26,379 bases of DNA from a virus: positions 1-26,379 of the IMG/VR virus record IMGVR_UViG_3300020465_000081; one strand, given 5' to 3'. This document shows positions 2,463-10,094 of the stretch, piece after piece. Position numbers and translations under genes: made by a program. The notes under the pieces were generated by a model. That model had not been told where the DNA came from and made no database searches. It saw only the letters and a program-made list of their open reading frames with translations. How positions within the stretch are numbered: position 1 is the first letter of the stretch; each line of letters starts with the position of its first letter.

Positions 2463-3317
2463 CTAACCCTTTGCGTTTAACTTTGTGTGATCATCTAGTT
2501 CTTTCATTTTCATTTCGTGTTCAATTTGTCTTGTCCAGCTAGGGTTTTGCCCAGCTTCAATTAACAAGTCATCTCTTATGTTTTGATTACGTTTTTCTAA
2601 ATTTAGAACTCTTGTAAAGCTATTTGTAATGGCGGCTGTATAATATGCAAATGGATTCTGTGATTTGCTTTCATCAAACTGCAATCCTATCTGAGATAGT
2701 TGCAATAGTGCCTGTGAACGCATTTCATCTACATAAGTGTATCCACGCCAGTTACTTCGCATACTGTAACGGTGACACAACATCATAAACATCTTTGCTA
2801 GTTTAGGTGTTATAGTTCCATGATCTACACTAAAATGTCCATTGCCCAAGCCACCTTCCCAGTGACTACGCAACACTTCGTCCCATTCTCCGTCATTAAG
2901 TTTAACATGTTTAAATGGAGGATAGTTACATCTTGAATGATGATCAGCTACAGTTTTTGGTTTGTTTTTTCTTTGTTCCAGTGGTATATGATCAAACGTC
3001 ATAACTCGTAAAACTAGATCTTCGTCTTTGATTGACTTTGGATCTACATTGAATTGATTTTGTTTAGGCCTTTGACTGCGTTTACCATTGTTTATTTCCC
3101 AGTCTAACATGGCTTCTTCATACATACGTTTCTCTTGCCTCGTAGCACGATTCTGCCTTGCTTCTTTCAAAACACTTTTGGTAATCTTATCGTCTTTGCC
3201 TATGATGAGATCATATACTGTATTTTCTTCATCTTGAAACCAACAAAAACTCAATTTGCTTTTGTGAATCTCTGCTAATAGGTCTTTGTTGTTTAAATAA
3301 TTTACTCTTTTTGCCAT
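2463..3317 (-). CDS. 55: Late-transcription sigma factor gp55, with long N-terminal extension
   Basis: In T4, gp55 is the small sigma factor that directs host RNA polymerase to TATAAATA late promoters, with sliding-clamp help. The family core is seen at residues 172-255: RGYTYVDEM (191-199) followed by NPFAYYTAAITNSF (221-234) and a basic helix, matching sigma region 2. At 284 residues it is about 100 longer than T4 gp55 (185). The first 170 residues are not sigma-like by eye; they include YLNNKDLLAEIHKSK (7-21) and a basic stretch around 50-85. The ATG at 3317 follows AAAGAGG (3322-3328) and a strong sigma70-type promoter, consistent with expression by unmodified host polymerase before late genes are read. 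The C-terminal tail is charged (KELDDHTKLNAKG); I cannot identify a clamp-binding motif in it. Confidence 0.85.
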   Translation of the reverse strand: MAKRVNYLNNKDLLAEIHKSKLSFCWFQDEENTVYDLIIGKDDKITKSVLKEARQNRATRQEKRMYEEAMLDWEINNGKRSQRPKQNQFNVDPKSIKDEDLVLRVMTFDHIPLEQRKNKPKTVADHHSRCNYPPFKHVKLNDGEWDEVLRSHWEGGLGNGHFSVDHGTITPKLAKMFMMLCHRYSMRSNWRGYTYVDEMRSQALLQLSQIGLQFDESKSQNPFAYYTAAITNSFTRVLNLEKRNQNIRDDLLIEAGQNPSWTRQIEHEMKMKELDDHTKLNAKG

Positions 3318-3340
3318 TGAACCTCTTTCGGATTTATGTT

Positions 3341-3369
3341 AGTATAGTATGTCTGCGAACAAAAGTCAA
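3341..3369 (-). promoter_or_regulatory. Sigma70-type promoter for 55-47-46
   Basis: On the minus strand, TTGACT (3369-3364) and TATACT (3346-3341) are separated by exactly 17 bases, near the Escherichia coli-type consensus. Predicted start is near 3334, giving a leader of about 17 bases to the gene 55 ATG at 3317, with an AAAGAGG ribosome site in it. It would let host polymerase transcribe the late sigma factor gene early. No phage middle-promoter motif was recognised nearby. Confidence 0.75.
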
Positions 3370-3384
3370 TGGTTTTTCTGCAGG

Positions 3385-3392
3385 CTAAATAC
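3385..3392 (+). promoter_or_regulatory. T4-type late promoter box upstream of the baseplate operon
   Basis: CTAAATAC differs from the T4 late consensus TATAAATA at three positions (1, 2 and 8) and keeps the TAAATA core. It sits 18 bases upstream of the ATG at 3411. With the box at -13 to -6, transcription would start near 3398, just upstream of the AGAGG ribosome site (3400-3404). The placement in the only divergent intergenic gap supports function; the short degenerate motif limits certainty. Confidence 0.5.
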
Positions 3393-3410
3393 AAGTAACA
3401 GAGGTTTTGT

Positions 3411-4019
3411 ATGAGATTTAGTGAAATAACAGAAGCAGTAGCAGACAACATCGCAGTTTTTTACGGTGGTCGTTTTCAACCTATGCATATAGCACACCAA
3501 CAAGTTTATGATCATCTAGTATCTAAGTTTGGGACCGCTAATGTATTTATCGCTACAACTTTCAGTCAAAAAGCACAAAAGGCCCATGCTATGAAAGACT
3601 TTAGCAGTGATCCTTTTACATTTGATGAGAAGAAATCAATCATGTCCAAAATGCATGGTATACCTGCAGACAAGATCATTGACACCAATCCATACAGGCC
3701 AGAACTAGCAAAAATAGGCAGAGATCCAAACAACACGGCAGTGGTTGTGGTGTATAGTGCAAAAGATGCCGGAAGGCTAGGCACTGGTGGTGTGTTGCAA
3801 CCATACAAAGACGGCGAATTACAACCAGCCAGTGATGACAGAGCATATGTTTATGTTGCTCCTGAAATGCAGGGTGGCATGAGTGCTAGTGATTTTAGAT
3901 CAGCAATGAGCGATCCAAACAACACAGATCAAGCAAAAGCACAGGTGTTTAAGAAATTCTTTGGCAAATTTGATGATGGTGTTTACAAATTTATAGATGG
4001 AAGATTAAATGCAAACTGA
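3411..4019 (+). CDS. Nucleotidyltransferase of the HxGH/NadM-like superfamily
   Basis: This 202-residue protein resembles nicotinamide-mononucleotide or cytidylyl transferases, which move an NMP from NTP to a small substrate. The nucleotide-binding motif is GGRFQPMHIAH (residues 19-29; His26 and His29 replace the HxGH pair as HxxH). DPFTFDEKKSIM (67-78) follows, and MSASDFR (157-163) matches the C-terminal SxTxxR phosphate-binding motif. The substrate cannot be read from sequence; NMN adenylyltransferase (NAD salvage) is the best guess. The N-terminus MRFSEITEA looks like a T4 capsid-targeting peptide with an I-x-E cleavage site (see findings). The start at 3411 has AGAGG 6 bases upstream and is the first gene after the late box, so expression is likely late. 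It overlaps the next gene by 11 bases. Confidence 0.75.
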   Translation: MRFSEITEAVADNIAVFYGGRFQPMHIAHQQVYDHLVSKFGTANVFIATTFSQKAQKAHAMKDFSSDPFTFDEKKSIMSKMHGIPADKIIDTNPYRPELAKIGRDPNNTAVVVVYSAKDAGRLGTGGVLQPYKDGELQPASDDRAYVYVAPEMQGGMSASDFRSAMSDPNNTDQAKAQVFKKFFGKFDDGVYKFIDGRLNAN

Positions 4020-4662
4020 TACCAGACCTACACTTAGACCTAAAGGCTCTGGCGATTTATTATTCCAAGGGCCAGCTGAAGCATTAAAATCTGCCACTGG
4101 TCGAACAGGTTCTATGGTATTTCCATACACGCCAACCATTACATATCAAAGAAGTGCTAACTATGGAACCTATGAACTACCTCATACAAACTATCAACCA
4201 AAATATTATGTAAGCACTGGTTCACCTACCTTACAGGTAACAGGTTTGTTTACCAATCAAACAGAAGATGAAATACGTTACACACAAGGCTGTTTGCATT
4301 TTTTAAGAATGGCAAGTTTAAGTCACTTTGGCGAACAAGATCCACACAGAGGAACACCACCTCCGGTAATGTTGTTTAGTGCCTATGGTGCAAATCAGTT
4401 TAATAATTTTTCTTGTGTGATAGGAAACGTTTCTTATACACTAGACAGCGAAGCAGATTATCTCGAAGCAGGTACTTCTTCTTCGGGTGGTGCTCAAACA
4501 ACTACACTTGGTGGTATTGGCGGAAGCAGTACTGTGATACTGCCTGCACAAATGTTTATTGCTATTGACTTAATACATCAACCAGATCTTCTAGCAACAA
4601 GAAAAGATTTTACTGTTGCTGAAATGGCATCTGGTAATTTACTCACTAGAGGATTTATATAA
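4009..4662 (+). CDS. 48: Baseplate tail-tube cap protein, gp48-like (gp54 possible)
   Basis: In T4, gp48 and gp54 cap the baseplate hub and start tail-tube assembly. This 217-residue protein resembles the C-terminal half of T4 gp48 by eye. It has a strand-rich segment, then TNQTEDEIRYTQGCLHFLR (83-101) where gp48 has a comparable helix, then an MLFSAYG strand, NFSCVIGNVSYTLDSEAD, and a closing strand PAQMFIAIDLIHQ, similar to gp48's final beta sheet and linker. It is much shorter than T4 gp48 (364). Residues 155-173 form a Ser/Gly/Thr-rich loop. The ATG at 4009 overlaps the preceding gene, with GGAAG about 7 bases before it. Its position beside gp53- and hub-type genes supports a baseplate role. 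The gp48 versus gp54 choice is uncertain. Confidence 0.6.
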   Translation: MQTDTRPTLRPKGSGDLLFQGPAEALKSATGRTGSMVFPYTPTITYQRSANYGTYELPHTNYQPKYYVSTGSPTLQVTGLFTNQTEDEIRYTQGCLHFLRMASLSHFGEQDPHRGTPPPVMLFSAYGANQFNNFSCVIGNVSYTLDSEADYLEAGTSSSGGAQTTTLGGIGGSSTVILPAQMFIAIDLIHQPDLLATRKDFTVAEMASGNLLTRGFI

Positions 4663-4964
4663 TGGCATCAGTATATAGAAACGACAGTCATTTAGCAAAC
4701 ACACGAGTTAATTCAAAGTTCACCGAGTTGTATGAACCAGGCAATGAATTTTTTACAGCAGATACCACAGAACATGAAATTGAATCTAAACACAATCAAA
4801 GACCTGACCTGTTAGCATTTGAATTATATGGCAATCAAAGACTGTGGTGGTTGTTCATGCATTTCAATCCAAACATTATAAAAGATCCTATCATGGACTT
4901 CACAGCAGGCAAAACCATAATAGTTCCAGTAGCACAAGGTGGCTCAACTGATATGAGGATGTAG
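4662..4964 (+). CDS. 53: Baseplate wedge protein gp53-like, short form with LysM-like ending
   Basis: This 100-residue protein carries the gp53 hallmark: a leading helix with ELYGNQRLWWLFMHFNPN (54-71), corresponding to T4 gp53's 'IYGNPQLYWVLLMCN'. It ends with IKDPIMDFTAGKTIIVP (72-88), which reads like the end of a LysM or tail-protein-X fold. T4 gp53 is 196 residues, so the protein is about half length and lacks the C-terminal domain. In T4, gp53 locks neighbouring wedges together around the hub. The start overlaps the previous stop by one base (TAATG), with AGAGGA upstream, pointing to coupled translation. A P2 gpX-type protein is the main alternative; such proteins share this fold. Confidence 0.65.
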   Translation: MASVYRNDSHLANTRVNSKFTELYEPGNEFFTADTTEHEIESKHNQRPDLLAFELYGNQRLWWLFMHFNPNIIKDPIMDFTAGKTIIVPVAQGGSTDMRM

Positions 4965-4966
4965 TT

Positions 4967-7900
4967 ATGAGTCACGCATGGTGGCATATATGGGGCGGTA
5001 ACAAATCAAATTCAGGAACAACCGCTGATGCAGATCCCAAAAAGAACATAGGCTATGGTAAAGGCCAATATCATCCTGATACTGGCATGCTTAATACTGG
5101 CATAGCAATAATGGACGATGAGGCGTTTTATAGTGGTGCGGGCAATATGTTTCTTAAAGACCAAAATGAGCTTTCTTTACAAATAAAAGAAGATGCCGCC
5201 CTTCAAACTGGTGGGCTCGATCAAGGATCCAGCACATCTATAGATATGGAAACTTTGTATAAAAACAATCGTGTACTAACAGTTGGCAATGGTGTTGATA
5301 ATATCGCGATAGATCCATACGAGTTTGAAGACGAATTTAAGTCTGATTCACAAATTGCAAACCTTTATGGTGAGAGATTTGACGGCACCCTTGAGACAAT
5401 GAACCAACGAGGATACAGACACAGACAGAAAAAAGCTCCTGCTGAAGAACCATTTATGATAGGCGATTGGGAAACAAATAAACTAAATGATCTAGATAAT
5501 CCAACATACCATTTAACATTGTATATAGATAACAAACAACATGTCAACAGAGAAATGCATGAAAGACAAGGTGTTATCATTGCTGAAACAGGTTCAACCA
5601 CATATTTTCACATTGATAATTTAGAAATCTCAACACCTTGCGGAGGATCACATGCTGTCACAAACATAGCACCAGAATTAACATGGACCATCACAGAACC
5701 CAATGGTGCGGCATTTTTTCCCAAGCTGATGGAAATATGTGAAAAAAAGGGAATACCTACAGTAGCTGAGGCCGGCTATGCACTTGAATTAAGATTTAAA
5801 GGCAGAGATAAAATAACTGGTCAACCCAAAACATCTAATCAAAAATGGGTCTACAAACTTTCAGTCACTGATGTACAAACCAAACATGGCATTGATGGTA
5901 GCACATATAATTTTAGAGCAGTTCATTTATCAGACACCGCGGCAAAGGCCTCATGGAACAATCCAAACGAAACAATTACAGTTACACAATGTTCTACACT
6001 AGGTGAAGCAATGAAAGGACTAGAAGAACAGCTTAACAAATATCACAATAGGCATGCATTAAAAAGTTCTTCTAAACCAGACACAGTAAAAATAACTTTG
6101 ATAGATCGTGGTTGGGCATCATGGAAACTTAAACCACCAACAGGAAGTTCAACCAACACAAACAAACCTGAGAAAAGCGACTGGACATTAGATGCTGGTA
6201 GTTCTGTTAAAGATTTTATAACTAAACTTATTTTACACACACAAGAAATGGAAGATAGATTAGACGAAGCAGGTGTGGATATTAAAATTGACACAAGAGA
6301 CAGAGTTGATCATATTAAAGAGTTTTACATCAAATATTTTAAAGTTAAAACCACTGTAAAAATTGGCAGTCTATGGAATGACTCAATGAAAAAGTTCAAC
6401 GAAGATTGCGAATATATTATATTTCCTTTCAATGAACCTCCACCAGAAAAACAAGCTCGATTTGAACAAATTGCAGAAAGCATAAAATTACAAAGACAAA
6501 AACTTGCAAAAATAAAAGAATTAGATATAATGACAAAACGCTATGATTATGTGCATACAGGATTAAACACAGAAGTAATACAGTTTGATGCAACATTAGA
6601 CATGGCATTTTTTCAACCTGAAGTAGCATATGGTGGTAAGACATCCTACAACGTGAAGGCAAAGAAAGCAGATATACCTGAAGATCCTAGTGATATTGAT
6701 CCTTCATCAGAATCTGCTATACTGGCAAAGCTACAAGAAGACATTGATAGAGCTTTAAAGATAAGAACCAAATATGGCAATCTAGAACAAGAATTAATAG
6801 GAGAACAAAGTAATCCAATGCGGCAGGATCCGGTCCTGCAGGGTCAAATTGCTAAAAAAATTAAAGACGCTCGAAAGAACGTTGAAAAAGCAGACAAACA
6901 ATTAAATGCATTATCTAATATAAAAGCTCAAAGATTACGATTTGCTTATGAAGATGCTTTAGGTGTAACCGAACAGGGTGATACAACCTATCTAGGTGAT
7001 ATTAATGTTGGTGGTGATCAAAATGTTACTAGGAAATATCTTCCTACCTATGCAAAGCGTACCACACAAGTTGATAATGGTGCTTTGATGGAAACAGCAA
7101 AACAAAATTTAGAAAATACCAGTGGTGATATGCTTAACATAGAAATAGGCATTAAAGGAGATCCTTATTGGTTAGGTGCACCAGCAACAGGAACTGGTTG
7201 GGAAAAACAAGAAAGGCCAGATGGTCGCACATTTAAAATTGTAGAACGAGGATTGGTAGATTATGATATTGGTCCTCCTGTATTTTTGTTCAGCATGTTT
7301 TTTCCAGATCCATTACATGGTAACAAGCCATACTTTAATAAATTGTATTCAGGTGTGTATAAAGCCATGACAGTAATACATCAATTTCGCGGAGGACAAT
7401 TTACACAATTTCTTACAGGTGTTAGAGATACAGCTATTACAGAACCAAATGTAATCATGCTAGTAAATGCATTAAAGCCATCAATGGTTGGCAAAGGCGA
7501 TATAGCAAAACCAACAGACGATGGTAATGATGAAGGACTCAATGGTATTGCATCTGATGGAGCCAATGTAGCACCAGCAGGTGAAGTACCTGCTACAGTC
7601 TCTGGCAGAGAACAACAAGTGATGGATAGATTGATCAATCATCATGGACTTACACCTGCTCAGGCGGCAGGTGTTGTGGGCAACCTCAATAAAGAAAGTG
7701 CATTAAAAACTGGTGCTAGAAATCCAGGAGATGGTAACGATGGCAGTGACAGTATTGGTATTGCACAATGGAATAGCACTAGAGCAGATAACCTTAAAGC
7801 GTTTGCGGCCAGTAAAAACGTCAGTCATTTAGATTTAAATACACAAGCAGATTTTATCATGCATGAATTAAACGGCAGTGGTGCATATGGTGGTGGATCA

Positions 7901-8092
7901 GAGTCTGGTGCATGGAATAGATTGAAGAACGCATCCAATGAACAATCGGCGGCAGAAGCATTTACATACTATGAACGATTCAAAGATTATAATGTTGCTG
8001 GTAATCACGAAACAATATCTAGAAAATCACAAGCTAGTAGAATTTTAAATAATTACTATTCAAATCAAAATACCCAACCGGAACTGAGCTAG
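4967..8092 (+). CDS. Baseplate hub protein fused to a C-terminal tail lysozyme
   Basis: This is a 1041-residue multidomain hub protein. Residues 1-150 are Gly/Asp/Asn-rich. About 165-340 is a beta-rich region (with TNIAPELTWTITEPNG near 231) that I take for the gp27-type hub barrel. About 400-545 contains a mixed region ending in KRYDYVHTGLNTEVIQFD. Residues 571-664 are highly charged and probably coiled coil. Residues 885-1030 match the tail lysozyme family (Phage_lysozyme2): GLTPAQAAGVVGNLNKES with candidate catalytic Glu910, then SIGIAQWN, then TQADFIMHEL. This domain would open peptidoglycan during injection. It starts two bases after the gp53-like gene, with AGGA upstream. The spike gene follows directly. 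The hub identity is inferred from position and size; the lysozyme domain is well supported. Confidence 0.8.
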   Translation: MSHAWWHIWGGNKSNSGTTADADPKKNIGYGKGQYHPDTGMLNTGIAIMDDEAFYSGAGNMFLKDQNELSLQIKEDAALQTGGLDQGSSTSIDMETLYKNNRVLTVGNGVDNIAIDPYEFEDEFKSDSQIANLYGERFDGTLETMNQRGYRHRQKKAPAEEPFMIGDWETNKLNDLDNPTYHLTLYIDNKQHVNREMHERQGVIIAETGSTTYFHIDNLEISTPCGGSHAVTNIAPELTWTITEPNGAAFFPKLMEICEKKGIPTVAEAGYALELRFKGRDKITGQPKTSNQKWVYKLSVTDVQTKHGIDGSTYNFRAVHLSDTAAKASWNNPNETITVTQCSTLGEAMKGLEEQLNKYHNRHALKSSSKPDTVKITLIDRGWASWKLKPPTGSSTNTNKPEKSDWTLDAGSSVKDFITKLILHTQEMEDRLDEAGVDIKIDTRDRVDHIKEFYIKYFKVKTTVKIGSLWNDSMKKFNEDCEYIIFPFNEPPPEKQARFEQIAESIKLQRQKLAKIKELDIMTKRYDYVHTGLNTEVIQFDATLDMAFFQPEVAYGGKTSYNVKAKKADIPEDPSDIDPSSESAILAKLQEDIDRALKIRTKYGNLEQELIGEQSNPMRQDPVLQGQIAKKIKDARKNVEKADKQLNALSNIKAQRLRFAYEDALGVTEQGDTTYLGDINVGGDQNVTRKYLPTYAKRTTQVDNGALMETAKQNLENTSGDMLNIEIGIKGDPYWLGAPATGTGWEKQERPDGRTFKIVERGLVDYDIGPPVFLFSMFFPDPLHGNKPYFNKLYSGVYKAMTVIHQFRGGQFTQFLTGVRDTAITEPNVIMLVNALKPSMVGKGDIAKPTDDGNDEGLNGIASDGANVAPAGEVPATVSGREQQVMDRLINHHGLTPAQAAGVVGNLNKESALKTGARNPGDGNDGSDSIGIAQWNSTRADNLKAFAASKNVSHLDLNTQADFIMHELNGSGAYGGGSESGAWNRLKNASNEQSAAEAFTYYERFKDYNVAGNHETISRKSQASRILNNYYSNQNTQPELS

Positions 8093-10086: not shown

Positions 10087-10094
10087 CATAAATA
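10087..10094 (+). promoter_or_regulatory. T4-type late promoter box upstream of gene 25
   Basis: CATAAATA matches T4 late TATAAATA at 7 of 8 positions. It lies in the only gap (31 bases) in the plus-strand gene chain between 4964 and the right edge that is longer than 10 bases. With the box at -13 to -6, transcription would begin at or very near 10100, the A of the gene 25 ATG. No Shine-Dalgarno sequence is present in the gap. It would drive 25-6-7. Confidence 0.65.

Follow-up and report, generated by a model that had tools for sequence, protein, structure and literature searches.

A predicted early/late transcription boundary at the gp55 late-sigma gene in a large T4-like phage group

The window, the whole stretch of DNA that was analysed, is a virus record of 26,379 bases in which a gap of 93 bases (3318-3410) separates a minus-strand unit headed by gp55 from a plus-strand structural operon. 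A host-type promoter element and a late promoter box stand head to head in this gap, their arrangement and the gene order are conserved and their spacing varies little among the contigs examined, and the gap is very probably the boundary of early and late transcription units whose order would be set by the availability of sigma factors. The host polymerase with its own sigma would act early at the minus-strand site TTGACT-17-TATACT to express gp55 together with gp47 and gp46. The gp55 protein would then steer the polymerase to late boxes throughout the genome, one of them just across the gap in front of the tail/baseplate operon, and the timing of early and late expression would follow from which sigma factor is available. 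With no more than 63 bp between the predicted starts, a late complex, once activated, would be expected to cover the early -35 and, as a side effect, to reduce the transcription of gp55 in cis at late times.

Such a boundary around the late-sigma gene is conserved in a large T4-like phage group; neither T4 nor any of the four Kyanoviridae examined has it. Should the overlap have a regulatory effect, it would amount to a simple cis feedback on the master late regulator of the phage, and PA5oct, 121Q and GAP32 are cultured relatives in which this could be tested. Among the titles and abstract openings that searches of openly licensed papers brought up, none described an early/late junction at gp55, and the paper on phage MIJ3 has no text on promoters.

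Genes and promoter elements in the window

The features on which the argument depends are as follows.

1-1446, minus: gp46-like gene, SbcC-type, truncated by the window end (phrog_77, E 1.7e-70)
1439-2461, minus: gp47-like nuclease gene, SbcD-type, in line behind gp55 (phrog_100, E 1.3e-59)
2463-3317, minus: gp55-type late sigma factor of 284 aa with a long N-terminal extension (phrog_12791, E 2e-86 over 1-277; phrog_234, E 2.6e-23 over 168-268)
3341-3369, minus: predicted sigma70-like promoter of gp55, with -35 TTGACT at 3369-3364, a 17-base spacer and -10 TATACT at 3346-3341
3373-3377, minus: UP-element-like A-tract AAAAA just upstream of the -35, supported by the conserved columns -44 to -40 across 30 distinct gaps
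3384-3391, plus: T4-type late promoter box GCTAAATA, at -13 to -6, from alignment to the T4 box TATAAATA
3400-3404, plus: AGAGG, resembling a ribosome-binding site, for the first plus-strand gene, read from the sequence
3411-4019, plus: nucleotidyltransferase (cytidylyltransferase-like), first gene of the late operon (phrog_395, E 1.6e-7)
4009-4662, plus: virion structural gene (phrog_12050, E 1.4e-35)
4662-4964, plus: gp53-type baseplate wedge gene (phrog_7145, E 1.5e-21; PF11246, E 3.1e-5)
4967-8092, plus: structural protein with a tail-lysozyme domain (PF18013, E 2.1e-28; phrog_11190, E 9.5e-41)

A sigma70-type promoter has -35 and -10 hexamers spaced by 16-18 bases, and the minus-strand site matched these at 10 of 12 positions with a spacing of 17. 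It lies exactly where an earlier note on this DNA had put a near-consensus sigma70 promoter (3369-3341), and the gene downstream is, as that note had it, a late sigma. The note had also read a late box at 3385-3392; a box is indeed present on the plus strand, and alignment with T4 sets it one base to the left. The operon that it heads was described there as a baseplate operon; it includes a gp53-type gene but does not open with a baseplate gene, the first being nucleotidyltransferase-like. Starts were placed by the usual geometry, with the -10 hexamer at -12 to -7 and the late box at -13 to -6, giving a minus-strand start at about 3334 and a plus-strand start at about 3397, each on an A.

The window contains two marks of a T4-type late unit, a phage-encoded gp55-type late sigma, recognised by phrog_12791 as well as phrog_234, and a TATAAATA-type box upstream of structural genes. 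The box departs from TATAAATA at its first two places, where GC replaces TA, a variant reported for phage Aeh1 in a T4 review (PMC2988020). Along the plus-strand run of the window the box at 3384-3391 is the sole TAAATA that stands at an ordinary leader distance ahead of a gene; a TAAATA at 10087 would have its start at about the next gene's ATG, and another at 8044 reads TTTAAATA. A late box serving gp55 itself was considered and rejected, a minus-strand TAAATA being present in only one of 54 distinct gaps. Searches of the window for tRNA genes and Rfam families gave no matches, a search for near-identical phages returned none, and no solved structures were found for the nucleotidyltransferase-like first plus-strand gene.

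Conservation of the junction

Two scans of a viral contig collection yielded 122 loci, 80 through gp55 and 42 through the first plus-strand gene; removal of 10 loci that repeated a contig and addition of the window gave 113 distinct contigs, of which 110 could be examined. All 110 showed an early site with a TAAATA beyond it, head to head, which bears out the earlier observation of two promoter classes facing in opposite directions; the contigs were found by likeness of their proteins and not by their promoters, and they are mutually related, so the counts are not independent. The gp55 identity to the window falls as low as about 59% within this set. The minus-strand site scored at least 9/12 in every one of the 110, the -35 being TTGACA in 75, TTGACT in 31 and TTGACG in four. 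Nine of 114 loci lacked an ATG by the rule applied and were left out of the set of distinct gaps while being retained in the count of 110 contigs. In the 54 distinct gaps the late box was spelled ATAAATA 43 times and CTAAATA 11 times. These contig scans and aligned gaps dispose of the idea that the junction is unique to the window.

Both elements arose head to head in none of 2000 dinucleotide-preserving shuffles of the window gap, among which 1.2% had a site of at least 10/12 and 5.2% a TAAATA. When the 54 distinct gaps were shuffled both elements appeared in 11 of 5400 sequences (0.2%), as against 54 of the 54 real gaps, which share descent and cannot be taken as 54 independent trials. A chance origin of the two motifs is rejected by the shuffles together with the conservation in all 110 contigs. 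It is also clear that the junction is tied to gp55 and the structural operon and not to the nucleotidyltransferase-like gene, because five contigs (L018, L033, L046, L051 and L052) have no counterpart of that gene and keep the junction; the structural gene comes first in them, the early site scores 11/12 in four and 9/12 in one, and the late box is present in all.

Among annotated phages 364 records matched gp55, 57 of them over at least 80% of its length, and nine jumbo isolates with a long gp55 were examined: Phosso, PA5oct, BF, 121Q, Vibrio 2.275.O, KP13-7, XaC1, Kaldavass and GAP32. In all nine gp55 diverges from a gene on the opposite strand and a TAAATA box is present on that side. That first opposite-strand gene is structural in eight, on the strength of its label or of its position ahead of a gp53-type gene, and an adenylyltransferase in Phosso; KP13-7 is annotated solely as hypothetical proteins and its gene order was judged by gene lengths, and for Kaldavass a later start of the structural gene than the annotated one was used, by likeness to BF. 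GAP32, BF and 121Q resemble the window, with gp55-gp47-gp46 divergent from a structural gene, gp53 and a lysozyme gene behind an ATAAATA box. The gp55 side was less uniform across the nine, with best sigma70 scores of 8-10/12. BF, GAP32, Kaldavass and XaC1 differ from the window in having TGGAACG or TGAAACG at the place of the -35, only four bases between -35 and late box, and no nucleotidyltransferase gene in first position. Their -35 resembles, in place of TTGACA, the second of the promoter classes in the excerpted account of phage CBB (PMC5259590), a class that its authors place, as a prediction, in front of DNA-synthesis genes and of gp55. Both kinds of element found in the window are predicted in the same excerpts, where gp55 would be preceded by a promoter and structural genes by an ATAAATA late motif.

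T4 likewise uses a gp55-type sigma and a late box, and its gene 55 is not far from gp46 and gp47, but the gene lies within a run of genes on one strand and not at a junction. P-SSM7, HTVC008M, Melnitz-3 and OC, all Kyanoviridae, share the order gp55, gp47, gp46 on one strand and differ from the window in that gp55 stands behind genes of its own strand, with no divergent late operon; in Melnitz-3 one hypothetical gene of 96 bases is annotated on the other strand at gp55. As far as the comparison extends, nine jumbo isolates against T4 and four Kyanoviridae, the junction belongs to the group with a long gp55.

The sliding clamp and MotA of T4 were also sought. The sliding-clamp model PF02916 matched T4, and HTVC008M weakly, and gave no match in P-SSM7, in any of five complete jumbo relatives or in any of four long contigs, the model being too narrow to prove absence. 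A search for MotA with T4 as control matched T4 only and none of five jumbo relatives, and clamp and MotA searches that lacked a working control returned nothing in 13 records. According to the excerpts on CBB, its authors detected homologs of neither gp33 nor gp45 (PMC5259590).

Spacing of the two promoters and its possible causes

In 109 of the 110 contigs the distance between the predicted starts is 62-66, 70, 74-77 or 81 bp; the exception, L046, is ambiguous in having two possible late boxes, the second of which would give 74. These four distance classes need six changes on a tree of 75 distinct gp55 proteins, and the 62-66 class is found on both sides of the midpoint root. The classes 63/74 and 70/81 are each separated by about one helical turn; helical phasing is not claimed, the six class changes being too few independent events. 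In the window gap 15 bases separate the -35 from the seven-base box CTAAATA. Parsimony on a tree for the 54 distinct gaps gave nine changes in the -35-to-box distance and five in the sigma70 spacer, against 23 in the gp55 leader and 18 in the late leader. The distance between -35 and late box is more conserved than leaders of similar length, having changed about half as often. Such conservation fits either an interaction of the promoters or an UP-like element that fills the space, and the A-tract data favour the UP-like element.

It is quite possible, if somewhat short of probable, that the early promoter by itself accounts for the conserved distance, through an UP-like element that occupies the bases between -35 and late box and has the AT-rich box at its distal part; no cross-regulation would then be needed. 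The distal part of an UP element takes up positions that would coincide with the place of the AT-rich late box. An A is found at each position from -44 to -40 in 73-96% of the 30 distinct gaps of the 62-66 class. A-rich runs and GG stand ahead of TTGACA at several further early sites of long contigs, and the notion that the A-rich bases are peculiar to the gp55 gap was rejected on that account. An UP-like element ahead of RpoD-like promoters is also described for CBB by its authors, in the excerpts cited (PMC5259590). What fits less well is that another sequence, itself conserved, occupies this place in the 22-base class and that just 2-4 bases are available in several isolates.

The geometry of the gap bears on the claim that polymerase at one promoter would block the other. 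Excerpts on the T4 late complex have gp33 contacting DNA at -39 and -36/-35 and the clamp extending the footprint 13 bp upstream (PMC2988020). Placed on the gap, a T4-like complex would cover the early -35 and reach close to or onto the -10, so that by this analogy the two polymerase complexes would probably overlap. The overlap in that claim is supported by the T4 contacts and starts 63 bp apart, with the blocking itself as a prediction. E. coli has overlapping bidirectional promoters, likewise with opposite starts, at which one polymerase binding event excludes the other; these are pseudo-symmetrical single sequences, whereas the window has two separate sites that would be served by two sigma factors. 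Strong activation of one overlapping divergent promoter in E. coli can repress the other, and at basal strength no competition is seen between the divergent pairs tested (all from the abstract of PMC12825309). Repression of the gp55 promoter by the late complex is plausible at late times, because the geometry on T4 numbers permits it and overlapping promoters in E. coli can compete when strongly activated.

Whether such an overlap was selected is a further matter. That it was, with occupancy of the late promoter shutting off gp55 transcription on the same DNA as a local negative feedback, appears unlikely, even with the narrow range of start distances, the slow change of the -35-to-box distance, the presence of the 62-66 class on both sides of the root and the repression seen with strongly activated E. 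coli promoters in its favour. It is quite unlikely that the late-sigma gene lies at the boundary for this reason, that is, as a switch in which the late complex shuts the gp55 promoter on every copy of the genome, caps the supply of late sigma and holds the -35-to-box distance constant. The nine isolates tell against selection for overlap, since their -35-to-box distances are 2, 4, 13, 22 or, in Phosso, about 72 bases, and the E. coli pairs at basal strength do so as well.

A control within the same phages asked whether closeness goes with opposite timing, in which case divergent genes that share their timing should sit further apart. The gp55 starts were 62-70 bp apart in seven of the eight long contigs used; the gap at 102094 in G004 was excluded, gp55 having been called too long there with the early site cut off, and locus L051 on the same contig shows that site. 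A late/late divergent junction had crossed promoters in six of the eight, with start distances of -3 to -17, and other late/late pairs gave 46, 46, 58, and -26 or 11, from a set with few independent junctions and with only the box to mark a gene as 'late'. These phages thus commonly pack divergent promoters tightly irrespective of timing, late/late pairs sitting even closer than the gp55 pair, and closeness is no mark of opposite timing. The early/late head-to-head arrangement is not confined to gp55 either, because contig G008 has a second such pair, with starts 52 bp apart (L153:3441-3516), lying between a gene of phrog_11903 and one that had no match. The suggestion in the earlier note that closeness makes the gap a switch, early gp55 synthesis handing control to the late side and lowering its own transcription, is not upheld by the late/late pairs and Phosso, and closeness need not be a switch because the availability of sigma factors alone can explain the change from early to late.

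Positive coupling, in which the DNA behind a polymerase moving off the gp55 promoter becomes underwound and the adjacent late promoter is thereby helped to open first, is very improbable: the late box does lie directly behind the early start, and excerpts on T4 report clamp-free late transcription to be more active on supercoiled DNA, but with the clamp it works on relaxed or linear DNA too (PMC2988020), and initiation at the early and the late promoter may fall at different times.

Other promoter-like sites

Late boxes and sigma70 sites also mark the starts of other transcription units in the long relatives of the window. The crossed late/late gap lies at L155:3829-3892 in contig G008, with matching gaps in G001, G002, G003, G005 and G007, and adjoins a gene of about 277 aa that phrog_150 identifies as a baseplate hub in the single case tested; the predicted transcripts there would have overlapping 5' ends, the overlap ranging from a few bases to about 17. 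On the minus strand of the window TTGAAA-17-TATAAT (1514-1542), which scores 11/12, lies within the end of gp47 and upstream of gp46 and, by its sequence, may be an extra early promoter. TAAATA is rarer in the window than a first-order expectation, with 8 and 10 occurrences on the two strands against about 21 and 17, perhaps through avoidance of stray late boxes or of in-frame TAA.
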